Both the position numbers and the translations under genes were made by a program. DNA of 39,054 nucleotides from Spirochaetota bacterium. Lineage in GTDB: Bacteria; Spirochaetota; UBA4802; UBA5550. The notes beneath the pieces are model-generated. The model did no database searches, was not told the DNA's origin, and saw nothing but the letters and a program-made list of their open reading frames with translations. This document shows positions 5,457-36,468 of the stretch, piece by piece; positions within the stretch are counted from its first letter, which is position 1, and every line of letters starts with the position of its first letter. The stretch spans positions 1 through 39,054 of the forward strand of contig QKCL01000007.1 of NCBI GenBank assembly GCA_003246895.1, written 5' to 3'.

Positions 5457-5768
5457 GAAAATAATTATAGTCTTTGGAATTTTCAGAATGTTATGAATAA
5501 ATGAAAGCAGTTTTTACCTATCATTTATCTCTCTACCTCTGAAAGGGTTTTTGAAACATTCAGGCATGACCGGCTAAATAGGAACCAGGGATCTGAAAAA
5601 GTCTTTATCATAGCTGTATCCTCTGAGTAACGGAGAGGCATCGAACCTGCATGCTCTCTGATAAAGAAGAAAAGGTCAGGGAGGAGATTTTATTAAAACT
5701 TTCATGAACTTCCAGTGTAGCTGTCCAGGGTTTTCAGAATATGACTGTTCAGTGCATATTTATTTAAA
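5457..5768. other. Gene-free stretch with a structured element at 5603-5666
   Basis: No ORF with a ribosome site was seen. CTTTATCA (5603-5610) pairs with TGATAAAG (5659-5666). Inside, two stems compete for the same bases: CCTCT/AGAGG around 5620-5638, and a bulged GAGAGCAT/ATGCCTCTC hairpin on the minus strand. It follows the kinase stop by about 100 bases, and the minus-strand 3' side has a TTTTT, so it may be the kinase terminator or a small structured RNA. It matches no riboswitch I know. Confidence 0.3.
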
Positions 5769-8381
5769 TTATTCTTCAGGTGTTTTTATCTCAAGAATCT
5801 CTGCTATTGTATGGCTGAGTCTGACAATATTGTACGGCTTGTGAAGGAATGCGTTGAGTCCGATCTTATTTAATTCTTCAAGCTCTGCTTTGTATGAGAA
5901 ACCTGACGAAACAATAATTGGAATATCAGGCATGATGGATCTTATTTTTTTAAAGCAGTCAACACCGCTCATTACCGGCATTATCATGTCCAGTAAAACC
6001 ATATCAATGTTCTCCTTGTTCTCTGTAAAAATTTTTACTCCTTCCATGCCGTTTTCTGCAGTCATGACTTCATATCCCAGGCTCTGTAGCAGACTCTTTG
6101 TGGTTATGCGTATTGTTTCCTCGTCCTCCACAAGCAGTATTGTGCCTGAACCGGTCCTTGGTTTTACTGTATTATAGGAAATTGCTTTAGCTTCACCCTG
6201 TGCCACTGGAAGATATATATTAAAAGATGTTCCGCTGCCCTGGTCGCTGTAGACATTTATTACACCCTTCATCTGTTTAATAATGCCGTATACCTGAGAC
6301 AGTCCGAGTCCTGTCCCTTTGCCGCGTTCTTTTGTCGTGAAGAATGGGTCGAAAATTTTGTCCAGTATTTCAGGGGATATGCCTGATCCGTTGTCCGATA
6401 CTTTTATCAGAACGTAGGGACCCGGTTTCATTTCGCAGGAATGGGCTGCACAGAAATTTGCGTCTATATTTTCAAAAAATGTAGTAAAAGAAATTTCCCC
6501 GGTGCCTGAAATGGCATGACTGGCATTAATACCCATATTCAGGAAAACGGTCTGAAGCTGTGAACCATCTCCAATGACGGTGCTGAATTCAGCATTCAGT
6601 TCAGTACTGATGGAGATCCGCTTGTCAATGGTGTTCTCCAGCAGTAAAATTGTGTTACTGATTATATCATGAATATTTATGAGGCAGTAATTTTCCGTTT
6701 CATTTCTTGAAAAACTCATGAGGTTGGAGATCAGATTCTTTGCCCGTTCAATTGATGTTTCAATCAGTGAAAGATATTTTGATGTTTTCGGGTCAGGGGC
6801 AATGAAATGTTTCAGGAGTTCTGTGGAACCGTACATTCCTGCCAGTATATTGTTGAAGTCATGGGCAATCCCTCCTGTTAGCTGGCCGATGGCATCCATT
6901 TTCTGGGAATGGAGGAGCTGTTCCTGCAGCTTGACCCGCTCAGAGATGTCGTCTATTCTGATAATTGCATCTGTATCATTCCCCTCTTTTAAGGGAAAAA
7001 TGGTAATATCCTTGTATCTCTTTTTCCCATTTACGATACTTTCCTGTCTTTCTCTGATTATTATTCTTTCAGTTTCGGTTACTTCATTTACAAAATCTGT
7101 TATGTAGCTGAGTCCGGGTATTATTTGGTCAATTTTTTTACCGATGGATAACTCTGATGTGATATTATTATTAACCTCGGCAATTTTGTTTAACAGTGAG
7201 ATTTCCAGGTTTTTCTTTACTACAATTATTTCTGACGGCATGGAGTCTATTATATTTTTCATGTAGTTTTTGAGGTTTTCATGAAGCCTTCTTGCGGTAT
7301 CAATCTCATCCTCCCTGTGATGCAGTCTCTTTACCATATCCTCAAATGACATGAAAAGATGGTGAAATTCAAGAGGCATGTTTTTTTCAGCACTTTGCAG
7401 GTTCAGGTTCCCATCCTTTATCTGATGTGTCCTGTAGAGGAGGTTGCCAATGGGCCTGATCAGGAGATATTTTCCAAAAAGCCATGAGAAAATTAAAGAA
7501 AGAGTAAATACAATCGCAAGCAGTAGAGTATTGTTCCAGAATGTCCTTTCCACAGTGGCAAATAGTGATTTTTCGGATACTCCGATGAATATGCAGATCT
7601 GGTTTTCTTTAAGGCCTATGGATAGTTTTTCATACCAGTAAAGTCTGTTTGTTCCGTTTTTTTCTGAAACTGAAAATTTGCCTGCCATGCCTTTGGGGAT
7701 ATCGAAATTTTTGAACTCCGATATATGAATGCCGGGGTTTATTTTTTCACCCGATGACTGATAAAGAAGACGGCCTGTTCTGTCAGTTATAGTGATTGAA
7801 GAATCATCAGGCAGATGTATACCTGTAAAAAAGTTTTTATAATATTCAAGGTCGAATGCGGCACCGATTGCAGATGATAACTTTCCATTTCTATCTAATA
7901 CCGGCAGGGCAAATGGAAGCGAAGCTTTTTTTGATGAACGGCTGATGATGAAGTTATCTATAATAAATCTTTTATCTTTTTTTATTCTCATAAACCAGCT
8001 TCTGTCCCTGACATTTATGGTTTTTATCAGTGGTATTGCGCAGCATCTGATAAATCCTCTGGAATCTACTGCCACAATGGTTGAATACTGGGAGTTGTTT
8101 TTGTGAATTCCCTGTAGAAATTTGTTGCACTCCATGACATTAAGATTCCTCACAGACGGTACCTCCGATATGACCTTGAGAAACTGGCGGGTCTGGTTTA
8201 TCAGTTTTGTCTGTTCATCGCCGAAGTGATGAATAAAATTCTGAATCTCCGTTTCGGCATTATTGAGGAGTTTATCCTTCTGCTCAAAATTGGTATAGAG
8301 GTGTGCACTAACTAACGGAACAAATATTATTGCCTCAAGTATGAGCAGTATATTTTTTAATTTAGGTGTTTTTAAATTCAC
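5769..8381 (-). CDS. Hybrid sensor histidine kinase: Cache-HAMP-PAS-HisKA-HATPase-REC
   Basis: 870 residues. TM1 at about 10-27 and TM2 at about 283-303 enclose a periplasmic double-Cache-like sensor ('[10 protein letters not shown]', '[15 protein letters not shown]'). HAMP follows, then a PAS domain (375-480). The kinase core has H507 in GGIAHDFNN, the N box around NMGINASHA (615-623), G1 DNGSGI (663-668) and G2 [11 protein letters not shown]-terminal receiver has acidic VEDEE (751-755) and phospho-acceptor D798 in LLDMIMP. The 'HDFNN' H box with a C-terminal receiver is typical of chemosensory-style hybrid kinases. No partner regulator is adjacent. The start is GTG 8381 with AGAGG about 14 bases upstream, so it is somewhat uncertain. 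It is divergent from katG; control of katG cannot be shown. Confidence 0.9.
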
Positions 8382-10945
<2,564 letters not shown>

Positions 10946-21449: not shown

Positions 21450-23753
21450 TTGAGGATGTATCTTGTCAAAATTGCGGCTTCGGTTTTTTTTCTGACAGTA
21501 TTTTTCCCTCTTCAGGTTTATTCAGACTCGATTTCTGCAAAAAAGGATGTGAAAATCGGTGTGCTTGCAAACCGGGGAAAGGAACAGTGCATGAAATCCT
21601 GGAGCCCCACAGCGGAATATCTTTCCTCGTCTTTAAGAAAATACAGGTTTACTGTTGTTCCTCTCGATTTTGATGAAATTCATGAAGCAGTAAAAACCGG
21701 TTCAGTTGATTTTATTCTATCCAATTCATCATTCTATGTGGCTCTGGAAAATCTTTACATGGCTAATCGTATTGCGACATTGAAGAGAAAAATTCCGGGA
21801 GGAGTAACAACATCATTCGGCGGGGTCATTTTTACGCTGAAGAACCGCAATGATATAAATAATTTTGACGACCTCGCGGGGAAAAGATTCATGGCTGTTC
21901 ACGAAAGATCTTTCGGAGGATGGATTGTTGCACTCAGAGAGTTAAGGGAGCAGGGCATCAGTCCCTTAAAGGATTTTTTCAGGGTCTATTTTGGAGGGAC
22001 ACAGGATGCTGTCGTCAGAGCTGTAATGGACGGAACTGTGGATGCAGGGGTCATAAGAACAGGTACCCTTGAAACGATGGCTGGAGAGGGGGCGATTAAT
22101 CTTTCAGATTTCAAGGTTCTCAGGATGTATGGAAGTGGTAATCCTGGTATGACACTGCTTCATTCAACAAGGGAGTATCCCGAATGGCCCATTGCAAAAC
22201 TTGCAGGTACCGATGATTCTCTTGCTGAAAAGGTGGCCATCAGACTAATTGAGATGCCATTGAATTCAAGGGCGGCCATGGCTGCAGGTATTGCTGGATG
22301 GACCATCCCAAAAAACTATCAGAAGGTTCATGAATGCCTCAGGTATCTGAAACTGTCTCCTTATGAGGATCTGGGTAAAGTAAGACTTAGAGATGTACTT
22401 ATGACCTACTGGCCCGTTATTCTCCTTGCTGCTGCACTGTTTTTTGTAATGATAATTTCAGTTTTGATCTTTGCTGTACTTAATAACAGAATCAGCCTAA
22501 CAAACAGAAATCTTGCCCGTGAGGTTCAGGAGCACAAGAGGACTGCGCTGCAGCTTGAAAACGCAAGAGTTGTGGCTGAATCGGCAAGTGATGCAAAAAG
22601 TGAGTTTCTGGCCAATATGAGCCACGAGATAAGAACGCCAATGAACGGTGTCATCGGTATGGCTGAAATACTGTCAACTACAGATTTAACCAAGGAGCAG
22701 AAAGAGGCTCTTGATGTAATTATTTCAAGCGGAAATTCACTCCTTGCCATAATAAATGATATACTGGATTTTTCCAAAATTGAAAGCGGCAAGGTTTTTC
22801 TTGAGAATGAAAAGTTTGAACTAAGAAGAATTATGGGATCTGTTGAGGGTATCGTAAAGATAAAGGCAAAGAAAAAGGGAATAGGCATGAATCAGTATAT
22901 TGATGAGAAGATTCCTGAGTTTCTCATCGGAGATCCAATCAGACTCTATCAGGTTCTGCTTAATCTGGCTGATAATGCCGTAAAGTTCACTGATTCAGGT
23001 GAGGTTTCTGTACGGGCCGATTATCTTGAAGAGAGGGGACACCGGATTTATGTTGAGTTTATTGTCGCGGACACCGGCAAGGGAATACCTGCCGAAGAGA
23101 GGGAGAAGATATTTGATAAATTTACGCAGGTGGATTCAGCAAGTTCCAGGGTACACGGCGGAACAGGACTTGGCCTGGCAATTTCCAGAAAACTTGTTGA
23201 GCTCATGGGCGGCAAGATAAGACTTACAAGCGGAAACAGCGGTTCTGTTTTCCGGTTCACCATAAAATTCAGGAAGTGTGACGGAACATGCATGGAGTCT
23301 GATAGCTCTGCAGGTAAAACAGGAGAGATTGTTAGTTATTCGGCGGATGAATCAGTTGAGGAGAGAGAACTGTCGGGGAAAAATAAAAGAATACTTCTCG
23401 CAGAAGATAATCTTGTGAATCAGAGGGTGGTACTCCGAATGCTTCAGAAGCTGGATTATTCTGTTGATTCTGTCATGAACGGGATTGAGGCATTGGAGTA
23501 TCTCAAAAAGTTCAGCTATGATATTGTTCTTATGGATTGCCAGATGCCGCTGATGGACGGATATGAAGCTACAAGAAGAATCCGGAACGGAGAGGCCGGC
23601 GATAAAAACAGGCACATCCCTGTGGTTGCCCTGACTGCACATGCCCTCAGGGAAAATGTGCAGATATGCCACGAATCCGGAATGAATGGGTGTATAACCA
23701 AACCTGTGAAGCTTAAGGAACTCTCCTACCTGCTGAAAAAATGGATGCAGTAA
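21450..23753 (+). CDS. Hybrid histidine kinase with PhnD-like periplasmic sensor
   Basis: 767 residues. Signal peptide (1-25); periplasmic solute-binding-like domain (33-300) with the PhnD/phosphonate-binding pattern: '[13 protein letters not shown]' start, '[18 protein letters not shown]' and '[17 protein letters not shown]'. One TM helix (320-345), then HisKA with H392 in [12 protein letters not shown] box [11 protein letters not shown]1 DTGKGIP, G2 GGTGLGLA. The C-terminal receiver has AEDN and phospho-acceptor D696 in VLMDCQMP. Such kinases sense small ligands bound outside the membrane; the ligand is not known and need not be a phosphonate. Start codon is TTG 21450 with GGTGG six bases upstream; the ATG two codons on has its GAGG too close. 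Confidence 0.9.
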
Positions 23754-24426: not shown

Positions 24427-24455
24427 TTGATATCCGTTAACGTTCTTTATATATA
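24427..24455 (+). promoter_or_regulatory. Promoter of the FecR/beta-barrel/lipoprotein operon
   Basis: TTGATA (24427-24432), 17-base spacer, TATATA (24450-24455), 23 bases before ATG 24479. The spacer holds the palindrome CGTTAACG (24435-24442), a possible operator. No other promoter-like site with good spacing was seen up to 31 kb. Confidence 0.5.
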
Positions 24456-24478
24456 AACCAGATTCAGGATAATCAGCT

Positions 24479-25408
24479 ATGGAAAAAACAAAAAATAATC
24501 TAAGTGTGTTTGTTATTTTAATATTTGTATTTTTGTCTGCAGTGACAGTTTCCTGCGGAGACAACAAAGGAAAGATCACATCAACTGAAGCGGTTGTTAC
24601 ATTTGTGGCCGGTGATGTTAAGGTAACATATCCGGGCAAGTCTAAAGCTGCTCTTCATGTGAATGATGTCATTGTTGACGGGGCAGTTATAGAAACAGGC
24701 AGTAAATCTGTTGCGACTGTCCAGATTAATAAAATAGGTCTTGTGAGGGTGGCCGAAAATTCGGTGCTTAATGCGTCTCAGATATTTTCCCCTGATAAAG
24801 GAACCTCTCTTAACCTTGAAAGCGGAGCGGTATTTTCTAAAATTATAAAGAACAAGGACATAAAATACAGGGTCACAACAAAGACTCTCGTTGCTTCTGT
24901 AAGGGGAACAGAATTTTTAACTGTTGCCTCAGATAAAGGGGGGAAGATTCTTGTCAGAAACGGAGTGGTAGCTGTTTCCGGGAGTGACCTTAAGAAAGAG
25001 GAAAAAATTACTGCAGATACCAATGCTCTGGTTGACGAAGCCGGTTCAGTAAAGGTTGTTAAACAGACCAGAGTGGAAAACCTTGTACTCGAGAAATATT
25101 CACTTCAGCCATATATTGAAAATGTTGAAAAAGGTGATAACAGTAAAATCAATGAGAAGTTCAGGGAGATAGAACCCAAGGAAATTGAACTTCAGAAAAA
25201 GATAGAAAAAACAGAGATGATGGAGCTGTCACCTCTTGACAGACTGAGAAAAATGGGCAAACCAATTGTGAAACTCTTTGTCAGGGACGGCAGCCAGCTC
25301 ATGGGAAATATTGAGAAAACAACAGATAAAGAAATATTTCTCAATACAGGCGAAAGCGTCATCACCATACCAAAGGGTGATATAAAACGGCGTATCCCTG
25401 TTAAATGA
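24479..25408 (+). CDS. FecR-domain lipoprotein with C-terminal Sm/SH3-like motif
   Basis: 309 residues. Signal sequence with lipid-attachment candidate C26 (V-T-V-S-C). FecR domain at about 55-170: 'ETGSKSVATVQIN', 'VRVAENSVLNAS', 'LNLESGAVFSKI' and 'VASVRGTEFLTVAS' are its typical strands. In spirochaetes such FecR proteins are surface or periplasmic lipoproteins (LipL45 type) rather than sigma-factor regulators. No ECF sigma gene is near. After a Lys/Glu-rich helical part (205-250), residues 263-305 carry a compact motif 'LFVRDGSQLMGNIEKTTDK' ending 'IPKGDIKRR', which recurs in the two beta-barrel proteins downstream. Its stop overlaps the next start (ATGA 25405-25408). First gene of a five-gene operon. 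Confidence 0.85.
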   Translation: MEKTKNNLSVFVILIFVFLSAVTVSCGDNKGKITSTEAVVTFVAGDVKVTYPGKSKAALHVNDVIVDGAVIETGSKSVATVQINKIGLVRVAENSVLNASQIFSPDKGTSLNLESGAVFSKIIKNKDIKYRVTTKTLVASVRGTEFLTVASDKGGKILVRNGVVAVSGSDLKKEEKITADTNALVDEAGSVKVVKQTRVENLVLEKYSLQPYIENVEKGDNSKINEKFREIEPKEIELQKKIEKTEMMELSPLDRLRKMGKPIVKLFVRDGSQLMGNIEKTTDKEIFLNTGESVITIPKGDIKRRIPVK

Positions 25409-26298
25409 TTTTCAGGTATACCATGTTTTTCAGAATCAAGGTGAATTTCCGGAGTTCGGGAATTTCCGTTATGCTAGCATGTTTTATATTCTTTTTCTCA
25501 GGTACCATGTTATCTGCGGAGATTGTCTATCTCCGCGACGGCAAGGTGCTTAACGGGGTTATAACCAGAGAGGGGAAAGACGGAATTTTTCTGAAATCGG
25601 GTGATTCTGAAAAAGAGATCCTCCAGAAAGACATTCTCCGTATTCTTTATGGGAATCAGGAGATGGAAGAGGTATATGTTCTCTTCAAGGACGGCAGAAT
25701 AACAAAGGGGTTTCTGGTGGACCAGGATGAGGAGAAAATAGTACTCCGCAGTGAAAGATATTCTCCAGACGAGAGAACCATACAGAGAAGGGACATACGT
25801 GAAGTTTCAAAGGATAATATATTTCCCGCCGACCTCGAGATTTTTCTGAAACCTATGTACTATCTTCCCGTGGATTCAGGCGGTGCTGACCTTGAACCGT
25901 CTCTGTCATTTCTGGCCGGTATGGGATTTAATTCCATGATCACATCGAATCTGAGAATAGTGCTTGAAACAGGCTATATCAAGTCCGAAAGCAGCACCAA
26001 CGACAAGCAGAGCTTTCAGGTAATTCCTGTTACATTCAGCTTTGAATACAGAATCGGGTCACCGGATTTTTTTGCTGCTCCGAGAATCGGAGCAGGCGTG
26101 GGCATCATGGAGTTTGATACCGGTGAAGGTGAAGTGAAAAAGTCAAATGCGCTGGATCTTGTGGCAGGTGCAGGTTTATACTTCAGGATGTTCAGCCGTG
26201 TTTATGTAGGACTCTTCTGTGATTACATGTATCTCTATGACGGTTCAGATTCCCTGCAGAATGTTCTGGCCGGTATCTCATGTGCATACAGGTTGTAA
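25405..26298 (+). CDS. Outer-membrane beta-barrel protein with two N-terminal Sm/SH3-like motifs, copy 1
   Basis: 297 residues. A signal peptide precedes 'SAEIVYLRDG'. Two copies of a short motif follow: 'VYLRDGKVLNGVITREGKDG' ending 'LQKDILRILYG' (40-85), and 'VLFKDGRITKGFLVDQDE' ending 'IQRRDIREVS' (92-140). From 150 to the end alternating strands rich in aromatics ('MYYLPVDSGGADLEPSL', 'PVTFSFEYRIG', 'FCDYMYLYD') form an about 8-stranded barrel ending ISCAYRL. Start may be 25405 (coupled by ATGA overlap) or 25423, which has AGG upstream. Three bases separate it from the next gene. Strong paralogy with the last gene of the operon. Confidence 0.8.
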   Translation: MIFRYTMFFRIKVNFRSSGISVMLACFIFFFSGTMLSAEIVYLRDGKVLNGVITREGKDGIFLKSGDSEKEILQKDILRILYGNQEMEEVYVLFKDGRITKGFLVDQDEEKIVLRSERYSPDERTIQRRDIREVSKDNIFPADLEIFLKPMYYLPVDSGGADLEPSLSFLAGMGFNSMITSNLRIVLETGYIKSESSTNDKQSFQVIPVTFSFEYRIGSPDFFAAPRIGAGVGIMEFDTGEGEVKKSNALDLVAGAGLYFRMFSRVYVGLFCDYMYLYDGSDSLQNVLAGISCAYRL

Positions 26299-26301
26299 AA
26301 T

Positions 26302-27015
26302 ATGTTTATTAAAAGAAAAAATATAATACTTGTTCTTGTCCAGATTGTACTTCTGCAGTTTTATGCATGTGAAGGAGACACTCTTTCCTCAATGAAAGAC
26401 TTTGAGGCAAATACACATCCGGTCATTACCGCGTTTACAGATGATATCGGTTCAACTGACGAAATTTATCCGGGTTTTCAGTTCAATCTCGAAGTTCAGG
26501 CCCATGATGTTGAGGGGGAGAGTCTTGAGTATGAATTTAAATCCGATTCCGCAACGTTCAGAAATATTGTTGTAACAGAAACAGGCGCTACGGTGGAATG
26601 TTTCATCAGGCCGGGATGCACCAGCAGTTCATCAATTGTACTTACAGTTGTTGTACGGGATGAGAAGGGAGCTGAATCGGAAAAGTCAATAGATGTCGGT
26701 GACGGTAGGTCATCTCCTTCCATCTCAGTCACGTGGCCATCGGATACCAATCTCAGTACAACCAGAAGTGTGGATATATCTGCAGACTGCAGCGGTTACT
26801 ATCAGGTGACCACTCTGAGTTATTTTGCAGATTCTGGTGTGGATTTGTATGACTATAGTTTTAATTATGCTTCTCCTCCAACGCATACAAGAACAGTAGG
26901 CACCGGTTCAGCGGATCTTGACCTGACGGTTTCCGGAACCTATACCGTTTATATCGTGTTCAAGGATCTCTTCGGAAGGGAGGTCTCTAAATCTGCCGAA
27001 TTTACGGTTCCATAG
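26302..27015 (+). CDS. Ig-like lipoprotein, short paralog
   Basis: 237 residues. Candidate lipid Cys C23 in QFYACEGD, a loose lipobox. The mature part begins 'NTHPVITAFTDD' and contains a cadherin/Ig-like module with the pattern Y-x-F-x-S-D-x-x-x-F (EYEFKSDSATF) and 'TVVVRDEKGAESEKSI'. A second beta module ('STTRSVDISADCSGYYQV' to 'YTVYIVFKDLFGREV') follows. The first module is clearly paralogous to the start of the next, much longer lipoprotein. All-beta and secreted; no enzyme motif. It follows the barrel gene by 3 bases. Probably a partner or surface subunit displayed with the barrel. Confidence 0.75.
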   Translation: MFIKRKNIILVLVQIVLLQFYACEGDTLSSMKDFEANTHPVITAFTDDIGSTDEIYPGFQFNLEVQAHDVEGESLEYEFKSDSATFRNIVVTETGATVECFIRPGCTSSSSIVLTVVVRDEKGAESEKSIDVGDGRSSPSISVTWPSDTNLSTTRSVDISADCSGYYQVTTLSYFADSGVDLYDYSFNYASPPTHTRTVGTGSADLDLTVSGTYTVYIVFKDLFGREVSKSAEFTVP

Positions 27016-27138
27016 CAGTAGAGATAATTATAAAAATATAAAATAAATACAGGCCGTGAGTATGAATATAAATAGAAGTTACTCCGGAATTTAGCAGAGA
27101 AAACAGTGAGCATGAGCAGAAAAAAAGAAGGGTTTTGT

Positions 27139-30126
27139 ATGAGACTACTCTGTTCTGGATTAATAAAATTATTAATGGAAGCTGCAATACTTCTGGCCCT
27201 GACAGGGTGCGGGGGCAGTGTAGTCGGACCTGTTCAGAACTACAGTGAAAACAAGTCCCCAGAAGTTGTTGATTTTAAAAGCGACCTTGTTGTTACTACG
27301 GATCTTGTTCCGGGTGCTGTTGTGACCCTTACAGTTGAAACTACAGATCCGGAAAATGACAGCCTGAAATATGACTTTGCTTCAGATGACGGAAGTTTCG
27401 GCTCTGTTTCAACTGAGCCTGGAAAGGCCACCGTTGAATTTATAGTAGGGGCTGGCATAGTTTCGGGACAGACTCTTACAGTAACTGTCAGTGTAAGTGA
27501 CGGACATCTTAATGCAGTAAAAAAAACGCTCATTGTGGGAACTGCCAAGGACGGGCCCATGATAAGCCTTGTTGGTGTGATACCTGCTCTTATGCGTCCC
27601 TCGGGCCAGAGAACTTTCAGCTTCAGGGCATCGGAAACAGGTTTCTATCAGATACATGTCCTGCCATCGGGATATTCCGATTCCTCTATTGCATGGGACA
27701 GCGCACTTCCTCAAAGACTCTATTATGTGGGAGAGACAATTACAGTAACAGTGGACGGTTCAGGTGTTGGTGTGTCGACTGCGAGTGTAAAAAAGGACAG
27801 CAGCAGCAACAGGATAGCTGTAGTCTTTAAGAACGCAATGGGAGATGAATCCCACGGAAGTTTTGTCATCAATGAAGACAGCACTGCTCCCATTCTGAAT
27901 ATAACTTCTCCGTCGGAACTTGCATCGGGAACCGGTTCATATAATTCAACAGGGCCCTTTGCGGTAACATTTTTTTCCACAGATATGGATGACTCTTCTG
28001 GTGCGGGATACGGAGGGGTTCAGCTTAGTTATACGACAAACGGAGATGATCCTGATTTTTCCGGACACGGAACAGTTGTTGCAATGACTGAGGCCGGTGG
28101 TTCCTGGTCGGCAGGTGTTACCGTTGGGAGTACAGTGAAGGGGAGCTATGTTCTGAAGTATATCGCACGGGACGGTTTCGGAAATACCGGAGTGGTGGAA
28201 AGTGTGAATTTTAGTATTGTAACTGAAACAGTACCCCCGGCTAATGTTACAGGATTTACTGTCACCGGAAAAACAGACAATACCTTAACACTGCAGTGGA
28301 CTAATCCGGGAGATGCGGATTATGACCATTTGGAGATATCCATGGATCAGGCAAACCGTGACGGCATCACTTTATTTACAGTGGGCAAGGTAAGTGAAAC
28401 CTTTACCATTGAAAAACTGCATGACGGCACTTCCTATTCCTTAAGTGTAAGAACCTTTGATGAGAACGGAAACTATTCGGAGTGGTATACTCTCCTGCCC
28501 GAAACAACAGATACCCAGGTTCCGGGGAAACCGGAAATTACTGTTATGGAAATAACCGGCAGCAGTGTTACCTTTAAAATCATACCTGCATCCGATGATG
28601 ATCTTCAGTATACTAAATACAGTATGATTGACAATTACTATGTAAATGCACCAGTTGATGGGTTGGTGACTTTTTCAGACTATAGTCCGGGTGATACCGT
28701 TTCAATATATACAAAATCTGTGGATTATTCAGGCAATGAATCTGAGCCTGCAAACATAAATATTGTGCTGCCTTCGTCAGGTTCATATTCTGTGGCCGAT
28801 GGTAATCTGCATGTAATTTCTGACAGCTCTGGCAGTGATCTCGTCGAAATGGCGGACAAGATAAATTCAGGTGAATGGAACGACCATTATTTTATTGTCA
28901 CTTCAGATATTGACATGTCAGGGGTAACCGGGTTCAGTCCCATAGGATTATACACTCTGAAACCCTTCTCCGGTGAATTTAACGGGGGCGGCCATACAAT
29001 AAGCAATCTTACAATCTCTACTTCCGATGTCGCCGGTTTGTTTGGTTATATAAATGGAGCCATAATCACCGGTATTAATTTCAAGGACTGCAGTATATCA
29101 GGAAACAATCGTGTTGGTACCGTAGCAGGGTCGGCAGAGGGATCTTCCATAAGTGACTGTCATATTTCGTTCACCGGTTCTTCAGGTGTTAGCGGCGGAA
29201 ACAATATTGGAGGTATAGCCGGGTCATTATCGGGTTCAGATATCGCAAACTGCAGTGTTGCTTTTTCAGGCGGAGGCGGTGGAATGGTATATGCAGCAAA
29301 TCAGTACGCAGGTGGAATTGCCGGATATGTATATTCATCATCTGAAATTTCAAACTGCTATTTTTCAGGAATTGTCAGATCTGCAAGCCACTATGCCGGA
29401 GGAATATCAGGATTGTTAAACAGTTCTTCAGTGCAGAATGGAATTGTGAGGAATAGCACTATACTCGGCTATAATTATATCGGCGGTATAGTTGGGAAAG
29501 GGGACCTGTCAAATATAATGACATGCAGGTTTGATGGCTCAATTACAGGTACTGAGAATGTAGGCGGAATATGCGGCAGCCTGACCGGAATGAGCAATAG
29601 CAATTATTTAAGTATAAAAGAGTGCGGATTTGAAGGTGTAATTCACATAGCCGCCGGTTCTGTGAGTATAGGGGCAGTAGGCGGTATAGTCGGTTATGCA
29701 ACTTATGTAAATATTTCGAACAGTTACAGTACAGGTACAATAGACTACGTTGACAGTGCTGCTTCAAAAAATACAGGTGGAATTATAGGATACACTCCGG
29801 GTCTTTATTATGATATTTCATTTTCATATTCTGCGGGAATGATCAATGCAGCAGGTACAAATCGTGGTACAATGGTTGGAAATGATACATCATCAGTGAC
29901 CAATTTTGGTGCCTTTTTTGATAGCAGAATTGTTGTGGGTGCCGAGGTCTGGAACATTGCACCTGGAACAATGAAAACAACTGCAGAAATGAAAGCTGCC
30001 TTCGGTGCAATGAATGATTCGTTTCTCATGGGCAGCAGCTGGGGAATAGACCCGGACTCATCAATAAATGACGGTTATCCATATCTCAGAGTGCTTAAAA
30101 CACTTGAAGAAAATATTACTCCATGA
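27139..30126 (+). CDS. Large lipoprotein with Ig-like, fn3 and GLUG repeats (adhesin-like)
   Basis: 995 residues from ATG 27139, chosen because AGAAGGG lies six bases upstream and gives a clean signal MRLLCSGLIKLL...; lipid Cys C24 in ALTGC. Order: Ig-like module shared with the previous gene ('YDFASDDGSF'), a second beta module to about 245, a third Ig-like (250-365), an fn3 domain (about 366-455, 'PPANVTGFTVTG', 'TLQWTNPGDADYDHL', 'SYSLSVRTFDENGNYSEW'), an fn3-like second copy, then from about 585 a right-handed beta-helix with at least seven GLUG motifs (IGGIAG, AGGIAG, AGGISG, IGGIVG, VGGICG, VGGIVG, TGGIIG). GLUG repeats occur in surface adhesins. Ends at 30126 overlapping the last gene (ATGA). 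Confidence 0.88.
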   Translation: MRLLCSGLIKLLMEAAILLALTGCGGSVVGPVQNYSENKSPEVVDFKSDLVVTTDLVPGAVVTLTVETTDPENDSLKYDFASDDGSFGSVSTEPGKATVEFIVGAGIVSGQTLTVTVSVSDGHLNAVKKTLIVGTAKDGPMISLVGVIPALMRPSGQRTFSFRASETGFYQIHVLPSGYSDSSIAWDSALPQRLYYVGETITVTVDGSGVGVSTASVKKDSSSNRIAVVFKNAMGDESHGSFVINEDSTAPILNITSPSELASGTGSYNSTGPFAVTFFSTDMDDSSGAGYGGVQLSYTTNGDDPDFSGHGTVVAMTEAGGSWSAGVTVGSTVKGSYVLKYIARDGFGNTGVVESVNFSIVTETVPPANVTGFTVTGKTDNTLTLQWTNPGDADYDHLEISMDQANRDGITLFTVGKVSETFTIEKLHDGTSYSLSVRTFDENGNYSEWYTLLPETTDTQVPGKPEITVMEITGSSVTFKIIPASDDDLQYTKYSMIDNYYVNAPVDGLVTFSDYSPGDTVSIYTKSVDYSGNESEPANINIVLPSSGSYSVADGNLHVISDSSGSDLVEMADKINSGEWNDHYFIVTSDIDMSGVTGFSPIGLYTLKPFSGEFNGGGHTISNLTISTSDVAGLFGYINGAIITGINFKDCSISGNNRVGTVAGSAEGSSISDCHISFTGSSGVSGGNNIGGIAGSLSGSDIANCSVAFSGGGGGMVYAANQYAGGIAGYVYSSSEISNCYFSGIVRSASHYAGGISGLLNSSSVQNGIVRNSTILGYNYIGGIVGKGDLSNIMTCRFDGSITGTENVGGICGSLTGMSNSNYLSIKECGFEGVIHIAAGSVSIGAVGGIVGYATYVNISNSYSTGTIDYVDSAASKNTGGIIGYTPGLYYDISFSYSAGMINAAGTNRGTMVGNDTSSVTNFGAFFDSRIVVGAEVWNIAPGTMKTTAEMKAAFGAMNDSFLMGSSWGIDPDSSINDGYPYLRVLKTLEENITP

Positions 30127-31013
30127 TTTATTGTAACAGTTATATGCGGGATATTATGAGAAAAAGAAAAAGTTTATTATTTATTGCCATTGTTATTATG
30201 CTCCGGGCTGCTATTCCGGCAGGAGCGGAAATTATTCACCTGAAAGATGGTCAGGTGATCCGTGGTGAGATAGTCAAAAAGGGTGACGGCTACATTCAGG
30301 TGAAGACCAGATATCAGGTGCGTCTTGTGCGGAAAAGCAATATAGAAAGAATTGAAGAGGGCGGGAACAGCCTTCGTAAAATATACATGCTCACAAGGGA
30401 GGGAGTCGTTGTTAAGGGGTATCTGGTTGAGCAGGATTCACAGAGAGTAGTTTACAAAAAAAACGAAACCTCCGTTGAAAACAGCACCATGTCAAAACTG
30501 GATATTTTGAGAATGTCAGAGGAGGAGATAAGACCCGTTGACCTTGAGTTCGCATTTAAGCCGGGCATATTCTTCCCCTTTAACAGCGGCGGTGCAAACC
30601 TTGCCCCTTCAACTGCACTTATGGCAAACCTGAGCTTCAATTCGATAGTGGTGCCGGGGCTTCGGGCGGAAATTGACTCAGGCTTTACAAGAACTGAAAA
30701 CAGCGATGATCCGGAGAGGTATATGCAGGTTATTCCTGTCACTGTAAGCGGAATATACCCCCTCAGAATATCCCGTTCGTTCACATTTTCTCCGAGGCTG
30801 GGGGCAGGGATGTCAATGGTAGAGTACAACAGCGGGCAGGGGGAGGAACTTGACGGTCAGATTTTTACTCTGACTGCTGGTCTTAAATTTCAGTACAGCC
30901 TCATTCAGAGAAGATTTTTCATTGGAGTATTCTTTGATTACTACATGCTATGGGATTCCTCGGGTATGCTTCATACAGGTATAGGCGGAGTTGCCCTTTC
31001 ATACAGGCTGTAG
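30123..31013 (+). CDS. Outer-membrane beta-barrel protein with two N-terminal Sm/SH3-like motifs, copy 2
   Basis: 296 residues, paralogous to the second gene of the operon: same size, signal peptide ending 'PAGAEIIHLKDG', two copies of the motif ('IHLKDGQVIRGEIVKKGDG' ending 'KSNIERIEEG'; 'MLTREGVVVKGYLVEQDSQ' ending 'SKLDILRMS') and a C-terminal barrel with shared blocks: 'FPFNSGGANLAPS' against 'LPVDSGGADLEPS', 'QVIPVT', 'PRLGAGMSMVEYNSGQGE' against 'PRIGAGVGIMEFDTGEGE'. Ends VALSYRL. Starts inside the ATGA overlap, or at 30156 where the signal begins MRKRKSLLF. Its last 43 bases overlap the convergent EAL gene. Confidence 0.8.
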   Translation: MIYCNSYMRDIMRKRKSLLFIAIVIMLRAAIPAGAEIIHLKDGQVIRGEIVKKGDGYIQVKTRYQVRLVRKSNIERIEEGGNSLRKIYMLTREGVVVKGYLVEQDSQRVVYKKNETSVENSTMSKLDILRMSEEEIRPVDLEFAFKPGIFFPFNSGGANLAPSTALMANLSFNSIVVPGLRAEIDSGFTRTENSDDPERYMQVIPVTVSGIYPLRISRSFTFSPRLGAGMSMVEYNSGQGEELDGQIFTLTAGLKFQYSLIQRRFFIGVFFDYYMLWDSSGMLHTGIGGVALSYRL

Positions 31014-32872
31014 TGGCTTTCCATATCCGGATTCAGAGGGTTGAGGTCGGGGGATGGCTCTCCTACATAATACCCCTGTGAATAGTCAACATTCATGTTT
31101 TTCATGAGTGCGAGTATGTTCTCGTTTGAAACGAATTCACCAATTACTTCCATATTAAGCCTGTGCGCAAATGATACAATTGATTTTACTATTATTCTTG
31201 ATTCAATTTTATCCTCGATATTCTGAATAAGTGAACCGTCGATTTTTATGTAGTCAGCCTGGAGGTCAAGGAGATAGTTGAAGTTTGAATAACCGCTGCC
31301 GAAGTCATCAATCGCTATCTGCACACCGTATGATTTAAGGAACGATATTGCCCTGGTTACCTGTGTGTTTTTCATTATTGATTCGCTTTCAACAATTTCG
31401 AGAATCAGTCTTCCGGACATGGAGTAGTCCTTGATGTTTTTTATCAGGGTCCTCACAACGGATTCGTTGAGTAGTTCTGTGGTGGTAAAGTTAAGTGACA
31501 CCATTACACTCGTGTGCTGAAATTTTTTACAGACCTCTTCAATCATGATCTTTGCCAGTTTCGGATAGAGTTTGGCAGTAACAGCAATATGAAGAAATTT
31601 GTCAGGAGTCAGAATTTCACCGTTTCTTTTTTTTATCCGTATAAGGGCTTCGTATTTTTTGATTTCCCCGGTACGTGTATTTATTATGGGCTGGTAAAAG
31701 GGGATTATTCTGGAGTTCTCAATGGCATGACGTATCTCCTCCAGAATTTCTATGTTCTTTCTGTAGTTCTTTTTAAGTCTTGAACTGTGATTCTGTATGT
31801 GGTATCCGCATTGAACCTCTTTGGCCAGATTCCTGGACAGGTTTGCGCTTGCGATGAGATCACTGAATTTTCTGAATTTCAGGGCTACCCCGGCTCTCAT
31901 GGTAACAAAGAGGTCGTTTCCGTCAATGTAGTATGACTCCTGAGATACCCTTTCCAGAATTTTTTCCGTGAGCTTTATGACCCTCTTGTTTGAAATGTTT
32001 TTTACTACAATGATGAATTCGTCCGCATTGAGTTTGTAAAAATCCATGCCTTCATAAAGGAGGGGCTTTACTGCATCTGCGATTTTTCTTAAAAGCTTGT
32101 CCCCTGCCTTTTGTCCGTAGAGGCTGTTTATCTGTGTAAACGAGTTTACGTCGAGCATTATGGCTGAAAGCGTCCCTTCTGTTTTGTTTTCCATATCAGC
32201 CATGAGCCTGTTTCTGTTATGCAGCCCCGTGAGGTGGTCGTGGTAAAGTTCATGGAGGAGATTTTTTTCTCTTACCCTGATGACTTTTCTGTAATAACAG
32301 AAAGCAGCAAATATGGGAAGTATCAGCAGAGTGCCTGTTACTATTGATTTTATCAGGGATATTCTATTGAAGGATGAAATCCTCCAGTACCTGTAATCCG
32401 CAGCCACTATGATTCCATCTTTTACTGGTGAATATATTGATCTGTAGAATATTCCGTTTGCTGAATGTGTTTTGAATACAGGAATTTGTAAATCAGCTGT
32501 TTCATTGAAAACGTTACTGTCCTGGATGTATATTTTTTTTCCGGAGTCAGTATTTTCGCCGGAGAAAAGATAATCATATGTGCCGCCTTTTTTCTGAACA
32601 GCATAGATTCTTTCAATGCCCATGGATTCGGAAAATTCTTTTATTCTTCCGGAGTATATAGCGTTTAACTTTTCCATATTTTTTCGTGACATGAAATTTT
32701 CGGGCATTTTTTCAACGGACATGACAGCAGACTTCAGCAGTGCATCTATCCTTTCTGTTTCTCCTTTCATTGACTGCTTGTGAAACATCCAGGAAAGAGA
32801 CAGTACAGCTGCCGCATAGAATATGCTGACCATGACAAGGAGTTTCTTTTCTTTCTTTATCAACATTGACAT
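30971..32872 (-). CDS. Membrane GGDEF(degenerate)-EAL protein, likely c-di-GMP phosphodiesterase
   Basis: About 633 residues from ATG 32872; a TTG at 32902 is also in frame but neither has a good ribosome site. TM at about 22-40 and 184-202 (numbered from 32902) frame a periplasmic sensor. The GGDEF site reads NADEF (292-296), so cyclase activity is doubtful. The EAL half keeps the catalytic set: E418 in YEALIR, N471, E502, DDFGSGYS (532-539), K553 in YIKID and E589. 'QGYYVGEP' closes the domain. It therefore probably degrades c-di-GMP, with the GGDEF half perhaps a GTP sensor. Convergent with, and overlapping by 43 bases, the last gene of the surface operon. Confidence 0.9.
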   Translation of the reverse strand: MSMLIKKEKKLLVMVSIFYAAAVLSLSWMFHKQSMKGETERIDALLKSAVMSVEKMPENFMSRKNMEKLNAIYSGRIKEFSESMGIERIYAVQKKGGTYDYLFSGENTDSGKKIYIQDSNVFNETADLQIPVFKTHSANGIFYRSIYSPVKDGIIVAADYRYWRISSFNRISLIKSIVTGTLLILPIFAAFCYYRKVIRVREKNLLHELYHDHLTGLHNRNRLMADMENKTEGTLSAIMLDVNSFTQINSLYGQKAGDKLLRKIADAVKPLLYEGMDFYKLNADEFIIVVKNISNKRVIKLTEKILERVSQESYYIDGNDLFVTMRAGVALKFRKFSDLIASANLSRNLAKEVQCGYHIQNHSSRLKKNYRKNIEILEEIRHAIENSRIIPFYQPIINTRTGEIKKYEALIRIKKRNGEILTPDKFLHIAVTAKLYPKLAKIMIEEVCKKFQHTSVMVSLNFTTTELLNESVVRTLIKNIKDYSMSGRLILEIVESESIMKNTQVTRAISFLKSYGVQIAIDDFGSGYSNFNYLLDLQADYIKIDGSLIQNIEDKIESRIIVKSIVSFAHRLNMEVIGEFVSNENILALMKNMNVDYSQGYYVGEPSPDLNPLNPDMESHYSLYERATPPIPV

Positions 32873-33006
32873 TGTGAATATATAGCCCTTTTCAGGCTTC
32901 AAGTCTTAAAAAAAAAATTTAAATTTGCAGGTCAAATGGGTTTTATGTAAAATAAATGTTAAGAAATTGTTGTGTCGCTGCCATTTGTTGCATGAACCCG
33001 TACTTA

Positions 33007-33063: not shown

Positions 33064-33582
33064 TTAAAAAAATAAGAGCAGTAACATGGTTGCTGCAATG
33101 CCTGTACCGGAAAGCACCAGCCCGCGTTTAAAAAATCTGCTTCCAGGCCTGTACATCCAGAAGGACGATACTGCAAGAAAGAGAAGCAGTACTCCATATA
33201 AAGCGGCCAGTATATGAACCAGGTTTCCGCTGGACTGCATATGGAATCTGTTCATTTTTTCAATAATCGATGGGTATGAACTTATGACAGCAGAAGTTTC
33301 TCCATTCTTTATATTATAGGTTCCCCCATGAAAGTAGAGTATTCCGTTTTCTTTATTGATTATTTTCAGTTTTCTCATGCCCAGGGCCTTTCCCAGATCA
33401 TTCGGTGCCAGATTGGCCTGAAGAGTGATGTTAATTTTTTTTTCTAATCTCATGAAACCCCTGTCCCTGTAGATGAGAACAAGTCCACTCACACAGTAGA
33501 CTATTGTAAGTCCAATGAGCAGAAAACCGATGTCACGGTGCAGGGATCTCATGAGATTAGAAAGGTGTCTTTTTTCAGTCAT
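33064..33582 (-). CDS. PepSY-associated transmembrane protein
   Basis: 172 residues: TM helix at about 17-38 (LHRDIGFLLIGLTIVYCVSGLVL is the conserved R-x-L-H-x-x-x-G family segment), a periplasmic PepSY-like middle, and two C-terminal helices (about 118-141 and 152-171) with 'SFWMYRPG'. Related PepSY_TM proteins often sit beside siderophore or haem uptake genes and may act as ferric reductases or transport helpers; the present neighbour supports this but does not prove it. AAGGAATCTGGA precedes ATG 33582. The gene is separated by 120 bases and an AT-rich hairpin from the ABC ATPase gene, so may be a separate or read-through cistron. Confidence 0.78.
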   Translation of the reverse strand: MTEKRHLSNLMRSLHRDIGFLLIGLTIVYCVSGLVLIYRDRGFMRLEKKINITLQANLAPNDLGKALGMRKLKIINKENGILYFHGGTYNIKNGETSAVISSYPSIIEKMNRFHMQSSGNLVHILAALYGVLLLFLAVSSFWMYRPGSRFFKRGLVLSGTGIAATMLLLLFF

Positions 33583-33659
33583 TCCAGATTCCTTGTTTTT
33601 TTATACCGGTTTGACCTTCCCTGTTAAGGTTTGGTTCCGGCTCCGGGCATAAATGTTAA

Positions 33660-33680
33660 AAATTTTTAAAATAAAAATTT
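33660..33680 (-). terminator. AT-only inverted repeat 3' of the ABC importer ATPase gene
   Basis: AAATTTTTA (33660-33668) pairs with TAAAAATTT (33672-33680) around a 3-base loop. All A/T, so weak as RNA. Could reduce read-through from the importer into the PepSY gene or be a protein site. Confidence 0.3.
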
Positions 33681-33703
33681 CAGGCAGGAAACTTTCTGGG
33701 ATG

Positions 33704-34486
33704 TTATGACTTCTGGCAGACGGAATCGGGCAGGAAATATCTGCCGTGACAGTGATCTGTAAATACTCTGGCGTTTATGCTGAATACATCCTTTAAGAGT
33801 GCTTCTGTAATTATGAGTTCAGGGCTTCCGTCTGCAATGATACTGCCTTCTTTCATGACCACAATATTGTCAGAGTAACGGGCTGCCTGGTTTATATCGT
33901 GAAGTACCATAAGAACTGTTTTGCCAAGGCCTGTCTTGAGTTTCTCTATGAGTTCAAGCACATGGAGCTGATGGTTTATGTCGAGAAAGGTTGTGGGCTC
34001 ATCGAGTATTATGGTTTCTGATTCCTGTGCTATTGCCATGGCCAGTCTTGCGCGCTGGAACTCTCCTCCCGAAAGATTATTTGCCGGCCTTTCCCTGTAT
34101 CTGGTAAGTCCCACTGATTCGATTGCCCAGTCTACAATTTCATTGTCATGGGGTGTCATCTTTCCGCTGAACTTCAGGTGCGGGAAGCGTCCGTAACCTA
34201 CTATATCCCTCACTGTAAAACCTGGAACGGTTTTTGAAACCTGAGGCATGAACGTGATCATGCGGGCCAGTTCCTTTGCCCTTACGGTTTTGATTTCCCG
34301 GTCACCTACGCTTACTGTACCGGTTCTGGCCTTCAGGTTCCCTGTGAGAATCCGAAGCAGTGTAGATTTTCCTGAACCATTTGGCCCGATGATTGTTGTT
34401 GTTTTCTTTTCCGGAAGGGAGAAGTTCAGTTCCCTTATGACAAGTTCTTTCCCGTACCCTCCGGTGACACCCGTACATTTAAGCAT
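33704..34486 (-). CDS. Iron-siderophore/haem-type ABC importer ATPase (FecE-like)
   Basis: 260 residues from ATG 34486, preferred over a GTG at 34498 because GGAGGAGCAA lies directly upstream. Walker A GPNGSGKST, Q-loop 'FMPQ', signature LSGGE, Walker B IILDEPTT, H-loop 'LHDINQ' are all intact. The 'PHLKFSGKMTPHD' segment after 'VRDIVGYGRFP' is typical of FecE/FhuC/FepC ATPases. The gene overlaps the permease gene by 8 bases, so the operon runs binding protein, permease, ATPase. Substrate is likely an iron chelate, haem or cobalamin and cannot be told apart here. C-terminal 'CHGRYFLPDSVC' is a usual BtuD/FhuC-type tail. Confidence 0.9.
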   Translation of the reverse strand: MLKCTGVTGGYGKELVIRELNFSLPEKKTTTIIGPNGSGKSTLLRILTGNLKARTGTVSVGDREIKTVRAKELARMITFMPQVSKTVPGFTVRDIVGYGRFPHLKFSGKMTPHDNEIVDWAIESVGLTRYRERPANNLSGGEFQRARLAMAIAQESETIILDEPTTFLDINHQLHVLELIEKLKTGLGKTVLMVLHDINQAARYSDNIVVMKEGSIIADGSPELIITEALLKDVFSINARVFTDHCHGRYFLPDSVCQKS

Positions 34487-35480
34487 TTGCTCCTCCACGC
34501 CTGAGAAGGTAGAGGAAGAAGGGACCGCCCAGTGCAGCCATTATTACTCCAACTGGAAGTTCAACCGGGTCCAGAATCATGCGTGCAAATGTGTCACAGT
34601 AGACTATGAGTGCAATTCCGATGAATGCCGATGCAGGGAACAGGTACCTGTAGTCTGAACCTACAAACATGCGGGCAACATGGGGCACTATGAGTCCCAC
34701 AAATCCCAGCAGTCCAACAATGCTGACAGATGCTGCAGCAAGAACAGATGATATTGTAATGAGAACTATACGGGTTCCTTCCACATTGAGTCCGAGACTT
34801 TTTGCCGTTTCATCCCCCATCATCAGTATGTTAAGCCTCTTTGACATTAGGAGAGCGAGGCATGTTCCGGCAGCGGCATATGGGACGAGTATGGAAACAT
34901 GTTCCCATGACCGTGCCGCAAGGCCGCCTACCATGAAACCTATTACGTTCTGCACTCTGTCAGGGAAAAAAATCATGAGGGATTGTATTCCGGCGCCTAG
35001 AAATGCCGATACTCCAACACCTGTAAGTATTAGCCTGTGTGGGTCTGACCCGCCCTTCCAGGCTATTGTATAAATGATAACAGTGGTGGACATGGCCCCA
35101 AGAAATGAAAACGGAACCAGGAGTGAAATATTTTCAGGAAAAGCTATAAGAAGGAGAATTCCTGCAAAACCTGCTCCTGCTGATACACCAATAATGTTTG
35201 GGCTCGCAAGGGGGTTTCTCATGATTCCCTGGAGTATACCACCGGAGAGGGACAGGGACATGCCCACAAGGGCTGCAACAACAGTTCTCGGCAGGCGGAT
35301 GTTCCATATTATCTGTTCATCTATTCCGCTGCCGCTGCCTGTGAGAACATTAAGGATGTTTGACAGTGATATCTTCACGGATCCCATGGAGAGACTGAGC
35401 AGCAGAGAAACAACCGCAAGCAGGGCAAAGAGAATTATCAGTAGTCTTCGTTTTGAGTTTCTGTTCCGGGATTCTGTCAT
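34479..35480 (-). CDS. FecCD-family ABC importer permease
   Basis: 333 residues from ATG 35480, which fits family length; the longer frame to 35558 would overlap the binding-protein gene by 65 bases. About ten membrane helices with FecCD blocks 'RLPRTVVAALVGMSLSLSGG', 'QGIMRNPLASPNIIGVSAGA', 'LGFVGLIVPHVAR' and 'ELPVGVIMAALGGPFFLYLL'. The 'GLIVPHVAR' loop couples to the ATPase. Only one FecCD gene is present, so the channel is presumably a homodimer. Translational coupling to the ATPase by an 8-base overlap. Confidence 0.92.
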   Translation of the reverse strand: MTESRNRNSKRRLLIILFALLAVVSLLLSLSMGSVKISLSNILNVLTGSGSGIDEQIIWNIRLPRTVVAALVGMSLSLSGGILQGIMRNPLASPNIIGVSAGAGFAGILLLIAFPENISLLVPFSFLGAMSTTVIIYTIAWKGGSDPHRLILTGVGVSAFLGAGIQSLMIFFPDRVQNVIGFMVGGLAARSWEHVSILVPYAAAGTCLALLMSKRLNILMMGDETAKSLGLNVEGTRIVLITISSVLAAASVSIVGLLGFVGLIVPHVARMFVGSDYRYLFPASAFIGIALIVYCDTFARMILDPVELPVGVIMAALGGPFFLYLLRRGGANA

Positions 35481-35493
35481 TTCTGTCTGCCTG

Positions 35494-36468
35494 TTATTTG
35501 AATGTGACCGGATAAAGTATTTTTGCAAGATATTCAAATGCTTCCGGATATTTTTCATTGGGCTTGTACATGAACAGCTCCCTTGGAAGATAGTAGACCC
35601 TGTCGTTCTTTACAGCCCTGATCTCCTTTAGTGAACTGTTTGACTTGAAATAATCCTTGAGTCTTGCCTGAACCGCATCCTGTGTGCCCATCATCTTTAC
35701 AAGCATGATATCAGGATTCATGGCTGTAATTTTTTCAATGCTCATGTCAATACGGGACCCGTTTTTTACAGGAGACGATGTGGCTATGTTTTTCGCCTTC
35801 AGCATTTTGAGTATTGTACCCGTGTCCCCGCCAGGAAGTTCAGCGGTTATGCTGTTGGCACTGGCAAAGGTGATCATGACCAGGGGATTACCCTTGTCCG
35901 GGCATTTTGAAACAATGCCGTTTATGTCAGATTTAATTTTTTCTATTTTTTTCAGGCCCTGAACACTGCCGTTTATGCGGCAAAAAAGGTCCGAGATGAA
36001 AAGAAAATCGTTGTAGTTTATATAGCTGATTTCGATGAAGGGGATGTCTCCTGATGTAAGGAAACTGTTTATCTTCCTCTGGTTCTTCATTTCACGGTTA
36101 ACAATTACAAGGTCAGGTTTCAGTGAAACAATCTTTTCCAGATTGGGATTCCCAAGGGTTCCCACAATTTCAACCTTTTCTGCGGCGGGAGGTACATTTA
36201 TCTCCCCCTTGACCCTGGCAACTGCCTTTCCGCCTGCAAAGTACCAAAGGTCCAGGAAGGAATTAAAAAGCACCACTACGCGTTTCGGGTGTTTTTTAAC
36301 TGTAACAGTTTTTCCTGAATAATCGCTGTATGAAACAGTATCTGCTGTCTCATTGAGGAGAACAGGTATCTGTGATTCCCTGCCTGTATTACCTTTCGAG
36401 CATGAAAGCAGTGCAGTAAGGCATATAGAAAGAATAATGACTGTTTTTTTTCTGTTTCCAGTTCCCAT
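35494..36468 (-). CDS. Periplasmic binding lipoprotein for iron chelate/haem (FecB/FepB-like)
   Basis: 324 residues. Signal with lipobox L-L-S-C, lipid Cys C23. The binding-protein fold begins 'VSYSDYSGKTVTVKKHPKRV' and shows the class III landmarks 'VGTLGNPNLEKIVSLKPDLV' and 'YYLPRELFMYKPNEKYPEAF'. Two lobes joined by a long helix are typical. The signal suggests an outer leaflet or inner-membrane-anchored receptor in this cell type. First gene of the importer operon. I saw no clear Fur box upstream (36469-36569). No TonB-dependent receptor is adjacent, so the outer-membrane step is encoded elsewhere or the ligand diffuses in. Confidence 0.9.
   Translation of the reverse strand: MGTGNRKKTVIILSICLTALLSCSKGNTGRESQIPVLLNETADTVSYSDYSGKTVTVKKHPKRVVVLFNSFLDLWYFAGGKAVARVKGEINVPPAAEKVEIVGTLGNPNLEKIVSLKPDLVIVNREMKNQRKINSFLTSGDIPFIEISYINYNDFLFISDLFCRINGSVQGLKKIEKIKSDINGIVSKCPDKGNPLVMITFASANSITAELPGGDTGTILKMLKAKNIATSSPVKNGSRIDMSIEKITAMNPDIMLVKMMGTQDAVQARLKDYFKSNSSLKEIRAVKNDRVYYLPRELFMYKPNEKYPEAFEYLAKILYPVTFK

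Follow-up and report, generated by a model that had tools for sequence, protein, structure and literature searches.

A shared Sm domain in a FecR lipoprotein and two outer-membrane barrels: a possible sigma-less variant of an STN-free FecI-FecR-FecA analogue in Spirochaetota

Introduction

What could a FecR-domain lipoprotein be doing in one operon with two small outer-membrane barrels and two immunoglobulin (Ig)-like lipoproteins? The question is raised by five genes in the window, as we call the whole stretch of 39,054 nucleotides analysed here (Spirochaetota bacterium, assembly GCA_003246895.1, contig QKCL01000007.1, positions 1 to 39,054 of the forward strand). An earlier look at this DNA, hereafter the sequence-only reading, had taken the five genes for a possibly undescribed surface system held together by a short motif present in five copies, with the lipoproteins perhaps exported or displayed through the barrels. 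We propose instead, with a probability of about one half, that it forms an outer-membrane module for FecR-type cell-surface signalling, in which Sm domains replace STN domains and mediate the docking of FecR on the barrels. The window form would then best be read as a sigma-less, lipidated variant of an STN-free FecI-FecR-FecA analogue.

Operon layout

The five co-oriented genes occupy positions 24479-31013 (+) in the order FecR lipoprotein, barrel 1, Ig lipoprotein, large Ig/fn3/GLUG lipoprotein and barrel 2. FecR and barrel 1 overlap by 4 bases, barrel 1 and the Ig lipoprotein are 3 bases apart, a gap of 96-123 bases, depending on the start codon (ATG 27112 or 27139), precedes the large lipoprotein, and the latter overlaps barrel 2 by 4 bases; the tight same-strand packing noted earlier is thus confirmed. 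Their features are as follows (HMM, hidden Markov model).

24479-25408 (+), FecR-domain lipoprotein, 309 amino acids, with signal peptide and probable lipobox Cys26
24587-25063 (+), FecR beta-solenoid, residues 37-195 (AlphaFold; matches to PupR 6ovk and to 4m0n)
25253-25405 (+), FecR C-terminal Sm/Hfq-like unit, residues 259-309 (Hfq superposition, profile 4xq3, family HMMs)
25405-26298 (+), barrel 1: signal peptide, two Sm units and predicted 8-stranded outer-membrane barrel (NF047433, AlphaFold)
25513-25650 (+), barrel 1 Sm unit 1 (HMM; strands 39-81 in the AlphaFold model)
25666-25812 (+), barrel 1 Sm unit 2 (HMM; strands 88-135 in the AlphaFold model)
25822-26295 (+), 8-stranded beta-barrel of barrel 1 (OmpA/NspA/OmpW structure matches, Foldseek)
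26302-27015 (+), Ig-like lipoprotein, 237 amino acids (weak Big_7 and tandem-95 matches)
27112-30126 (+), large lipoprotein: head homologous to the 237-residue lipoprotein, then fn3 and GLUG repeats
30123-31013 (+), barrel 2, paralogue of barrel 1 (34% identity, E 6e-59)
30222-30359 (+), barrel 2 Sm unit 1 (HMM)
30375-30521 (+), barrel 2 Sm unit 2 (HMM)

The single promoter that had been assumed for the operon was not borne out: a sigma-70 scan gave only 9-of-12 sigma-70-like sites near the operon start, with a site count in the region no higher than in shuffled sequences, and a terminator scan of the region came out at about chance level.

A shared Sm domain

The repeated motif is part of a real Sm (Hfq-like) domain of about 47 residues, of which FecR carries one copy at its C-terminus and each barrel two copies at its head. 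Between the two barrels, unit 1 pairs with unit 1 (E 7e-8) and unit 2 with unit 2 (E 1e-11), and the FecR tail aligns with barrel-1 unit 1 at E 5e-6 (38% identity over 39 residues), all these values referring to a tiny sequence set. An HMM built from barrel units only matches the FecR tails of the orthologues in L024, L025 and L026 (E 1e-5 to 2e-4), the window FecR's own tail being a weak case that this model did not report, and an HMM built from FecR tails only matches barrel 1 at 4.7e-5 and the L025 barrel at 2.9e-10. When the two profiles are aligned with hhalign, the probability is 96.8 and the E-value 2.9e-10.

In the AlphaFold model the FecR tail (residues 263-308) folds into five short strands, the fifth of which follows a short helical turn, and both barrel-1 units show the same five-strand order. 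Residues 259-309 superpose on Hfq with a Z-score of about 8 and a root-mean-square deviation (rmsd) of 1.9 over 50 residues, and the FecR-family sequence profile gives a weak match to the like-Sm protein 4xq3 (E 0.015). The predicted FecR tail thus has the five-stranded Sm fold, whose strand order the barrel units share; the 1000 chains listed as matches for the whole barrel-1 model were taken up by barrels, so that comparison hardly probed its Sm units. The sequence-only reading was therefore right both in calling the motif Sm and in seeing it as a common element joining FecR and barrels. Since the proteins that carry these units are exported, Hfq-like RNA binding in the cytoplasm is not expected of them.

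The barrel-units-only profile recovered 169 non-FecR domains across the 76 loci examined, and 78 of the 83 non-FecR Sm proteins have exactly two units. Four units in two pairs were seen in L079:1176-3266, L091:6547-7284 and L098:17099-17830. The barrel domain has already been named, as Lepto_7_Nterm (NCBIfam NF047433, the LA_0442-LA_0875 N-terminal domain), and is barely described: the family entry gives no function and does not list the window FecR tail. Barrel 1 belongs to it by score (54.3 bits, cut-off 43), whereas barrel 2 stays under the cut-off at 29 bits. Of 393 genomes searched across the phylum 107 contain the domain, against none of the 14 used as controls. Residues 232-288 of the Kuenenia cytochrome Kustd1711 (PDB 7zs1) also form a domain that can be overlaid on the Sm unit of FecR (Z 9.0), and related exported Sm-like domains may for this reason exist outside the spirochaetes.

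Predicted FecR and barrel structures

The window FecR passes the Pfam PF04773 gathering score (43.2 bits against 24, E 5.4e-11). Its AlphaFold model has an overall predicted local distance difference test (pLDDT) score of 89.5, and residues 66-242 match the PupR periplasmic signalling domain 6ovk (Z 16.3, 140 residues, rmsd 2.7) and the putative anti-sigma factor BDI_1681 (4m0n, Z 15.5). At the family level it matches Lsa33 (3.5e-26), LipL45 and the LIMLP_03685 anti-sigma factors. It resembles the leptospiral Lsa33, LipL45 and Lsa19 in being a FecR-domain lipoprotein, but it lies far below their curated cut-offs, and the matches stop before the Sm unit (residue 267 at most). Likewise, it scores 43.3 bits against the LIMLP_03685 equivalog NF047528, below the cut-off of 200 (model positions 134-345 of 347).

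The barrel-1 model (pLDDT 85) shows an 8-stranded barrel of OmpA/OmpX type, with residues 142-297 matching OmpA, NspA and OmpW at Z 17-19 (Foldseek 9e-7). That both proteins are barrels, as had been suggested, is therefore supported for barrel 1 by structure prediction and for barrel 2 by its homology to barrel 1.

Conservation in relatives

The operon is conserved in uncultured Spirochaetota, so that the expected FecR/barrel neighbourhood was recovered in relatives: the full two-barrel form is kept in genomes G027 (L022) and G036 (L021), and one-barrel forms occur in G003, G004, G006, G020 and G038. The strongest clue lies in these relatives and is not visible from one sequence. In G003, G006 and G038 (L023, L026 and L029) an extracytoplasmic function (ECF) sigma gene (Pfam Sigma70_r2, 5e-8 to 2e-11) stands directly upstream of FecR, next to the orthologous barrel, and FecR there, at about 390 residues, comprises an N-terminal part and a membrane-spanning segment. 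The operons of the window, G004, G020, G027 and G036 encode FecR as a lipoprotein and have no sigma gene next to it, while a sigma gene with a sister transmembrane FecR is located elsewhere in G027 and G036 (L084, L085).

The window clade of the FecR tree has 10 members, 5 lipoprotein and 5 transmembrane forms intermixed, and is supported at 100/100; over the whole tree, at least four changes of anchor are forced by well-supported branches. The window genome itself has, on contig C70 (L028), an ECF sigma gene that has paralogous FecR lipoproteins and Sm barrels containing fn3 next to it. In distant families of the phylum, beyond the order, ECF sigma genes again occur with FecR-like proteins bearing an Sm-like tail in L300, L301, L302, L305 and L311, and in the stretches examined no Sm barrel directly adjoins these genes.

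Association of Sm units with FecR and sigma factors

Of 87 complete FecR proteins, 44 lie no more than 3 kb from an Sm-domain protein, and 40 of these have the Sm tail, compared with 17 of the 43 others (Fisher p 4e-7). Most loci had been picked by Sm matches and 40 by FecR matches, and kinship was not removed, so the figure describes an association and not a random sample. Eight of these 17 Sm-tailed FecRs adjoin an ECF sigma gene. Seen from the other partner, a FecR lies within 3 kb of 43 of the 83 Sm-doublet proteins, and in 33 cases one is adjacent and co-oriented.

Directly behind ECF sigma genes in L081:7653-8282 (-) and L070:11305-11865 (-) we found proteins of about 190-210 amino acids with an anti-sigma-like N-terminus, a membrane segment and an Sm unit. 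Because they keep the Sm unit and have no FecR domain, they suggest that the former, rather than the latter, is the indispensable periplasmic part of the anti-sigma factor. Small proteins with a single membrane segment and one terminal Sm unit are also encoded in L045:7910-8335, L167:5213-5740, L168:7009-7482 and L068:902-1396 (all -), those of L045, L167 and L168 near FecR and sigma genes.

Lipoproteins and neighbouring genes

The 237-residue lipoprotein (P0003) is homologous to the N-terminal region of the large lipoprotein (BLASTP 8e-21), whose repeats match fn3 (9e-11) and GLUG (2e-13). Given that the barrels and the lipoprotein heads are both paralogous, a barrel-plus-lipoprotein pair was probably duplicated within the operon. 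A second large reading frame related to these Ig lipoproteins (1045 amino acids) is found elsewhere in the genome at G000:C59:2193-2867 (L328), and beside the one-barrel operon of L025 there is a 1391-residue lipoprotein (5543-9715, -) with OmpL47-type and LipL53-type SBBP propeller matches.

A hybrid histidine kinase whose periplasmic domain is of the phosphonate-binding type is encoded upstream of the operon region (21450-23753, +). The 3' end of barrel 2 overlaps that of a convergent 643-residue open reading frame (30971-32902, -) by 43 bases (30971-31013), and genes for a PepSY_TM protein and a FecCD-type transporter follow on the opposite strand (33064-36468, -). An iron link through this transporter was set aside: its genes face the other way, and it was not seen in the L022 neighbourhood, where start sequences only were inspected.

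Proposed mechanism and alternatives

Both small barrels would be located in the outer membrane, each with its two Sm units in the periplasm, the Ig lipoproteins being putative surface or periplasmic partners. FecR, a beta-solenoid followed by one Sm unit, would dock on the barrel units much as the solenoid and STN domain of PupR do on the N-terminal domain of PupB. In the orthologous sigma loci the barrel would control the sigma factor via the transmembrane FecR, given that a FecR of transmembrane anti-sigma type is encoded directly behind the ECF sigma gene. The window FecR would have a lipid anchor in place of the cytoplasmic part and membrane helix; because of this anchor and of the sigma-less operon, it is more likely an adaptor, competitor or scaffold than a direct sigma regulator. 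Signalling to a sigma factor in the window system is doubtful, since FecR is, judging from its sequence, lipidated, and a sigma of matching subtype did not turn up in the 95.7% complete assembly.

With FecI-FecR-FecA and PupI-PupR-PupB the locus family shares the FecR beta-solenoid, a terminal regulator domain homologous to the N-terminal domain of the outer-membrane partner and, in the orthologous loci though not in the window, an ECF sigma factor with a transmembrane anti-sigma-type form. The differences are that an Sm domain stands on both partners where those systems have STN, occupying in the window FecR the position of the PupR STN domain; that the partner is an 8-stranded OmpA-type barrel with two Sm units and not a TonB-dependent receptor with an STN domain; and that the window FecR appears to be a lipoprotein, in contrast to a transmembrane anti-sigma factor with a cytoplasmic N-terminal domain, with no sigma factor alongside. 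The wider claim that Sm is the signalling domain of a phylum-wide, TonB-receptor-independent class in Spirochaetota, in which tandem-Sm barrels talk to FecR or to minimal anti-sigma factors via the Sm unit, is more tentative, and we would put it somewhat short of even odds.

Several observations weigh against the signalling proposal. The window operon has no sigma gene, and neither a sigma factor nor a transmembrane FecR of its subtype was found in the window genome, whose only strong match to the sigma group, on C70, goes with a FecR bearing a tail of another subtype. No ECF-type promoter motif common to the sigma loci and the lipoprotein operons was found; a word search between them turned up AT-rich words only, and no bipartite word stood out clearly from the shuffled sequences. 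There are also the 17 Sm-tailed FecRs without an Sm protein within 3 kb and the 40 of 83 Sm-doublet proteins without a FecR within that distance (contig ends contribute), and duplication may leave homologous domains linked in this way without their binding each other.

The same parts could form a structural surface module without signalling, that is, an Sm-based periplasmic scaffold of FecR lipoprotein and barrels that holds the Ig lipoproteins at the surface for adhesion or matrix binding, the relatives' sigma factors regulating expression of the module and receiving no signal from the barrel. The operons of the window, L021, L022, L024 and L025 are all without sigma, the related Leptospira FecR lipoproteins Lsa33 and Lsa19 are annotated as adhesins, and, among 46 genomes of the order, 7 of the 8 with a window-type Ig lipoprotein also have a window-type barrel. 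We consider this a serious, if less favoured, possibility, which leaves unexplained why an orthologous FecR of transmembrane anti-sigma type should stand behind an ECF sigma gene beside the orthologous barrel, and why minimal anti-sigma-like proteins carry the Sm unit.

Alternatively, the lipoprotein FecR could be a periplasmic relay or decoy that competes with a distant transmembrane FecR for the barrel Sm domains and so sets the sigma threshold. This would suit G027 and G036, which hold the lipoprotein operon together with the separate sigma and sister transmembrane FecR, and also L028, L045, L046, L167, L168 and L172, where sigma, transmembrane FecR and lipoprotein FecR lie side by side. 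We give it nearly the same weight as the structural module; against it, no transmembrane FecR of the same subtype was found in the window genome, G004 or G020. Translocation or display of lipoproteins by the barrels, as in the sequence-only reading, is very improbable. The barrel and lipoprotein genes are indeed conserved as neighbours, but the barrel is of the 8-stranded OmpA/OmpX type, shows no sign of a channel and matches no known lipoprotein translocator in family or fold. Barrels of this type normally have no open channel. None of the outcomes that the sequence-only reading had named as refuting it occurred. Thus the genes, Sm domain, barrels and conserved neighbourhood of the proposed surface system are supported, and export through the barrels is not.

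Relation to Leptospira and significance

In Leptospira interrogans, the accessible parts of recent papers report that LIC12757 (an ECF sigma factor) and LIC12756 (a transmembrane FecR-like anti-sigma factor) interact experimentally (PMC12155086, PMC12655853, PMC13118517). According to the authors, the extension that signalling to LIC12756 would require is found in no TonB receptor of Leptospira, which leaves the published system without an outer-membrane partner, and in 2026 the neighbouring LIC12758, with a Lepto_7 N-terminal domain, was suggested as a possible component (PMC12155086, PMC13118517 and, for LIC12758, PMC13118517). LIC12757-LIC12756-LIC12758 are thus the same kinds of parts as in our locus family. 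They differ in that the accessible text mentions no Lepto_7-like unit in the LIC12756 tail and looks for a TonB receptor, and in that the window form has no sigma factor (PMC12155086, PMC13118517). The last 42 positions of NF047528, the LIMLP_03685 family, weakly match a barrel 2 Sm unit (E 0.0012), from which we infer that the LIC12756 tail may carry an Sm/Lepto_7 unit; this presupposes that LIMLP_03685 is LIC12756, for which no paper linking the two tags was found.

The system can therefore not be called undescribed, given that NF047433 names the domain, that Leptospira FecR lipoproteins and FecR-like anti-sigma factors are known, and that the 2026 paper, in its accessible part, notes Lepto_7 beside a FecR/ECF-sigma pair and touches on the same idea (PMC13118517). 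As far as the literature goes, the new points are that both partners share an Sm domain, that this domain is conserved with ECF sigma loci and that lipoprotein and transmembrane forms interchange.

If the phylum-wide claim is true, tandem-Sm barrels would provide the outer-membrane partner that the FecR/ECF-sigma system of Leptospira lacks. For that role this locus family offers a concrete candidate in its tandem Lepto_7/Sm barrels, a putative docking surface and minimal constructs. The design in which the tail of the regulator resembles the head of its partner would then have been built twice from different folds, and the operon suggests a route by which surface signals could pass inward in spirochaetes without the usual TonB-type sensors.

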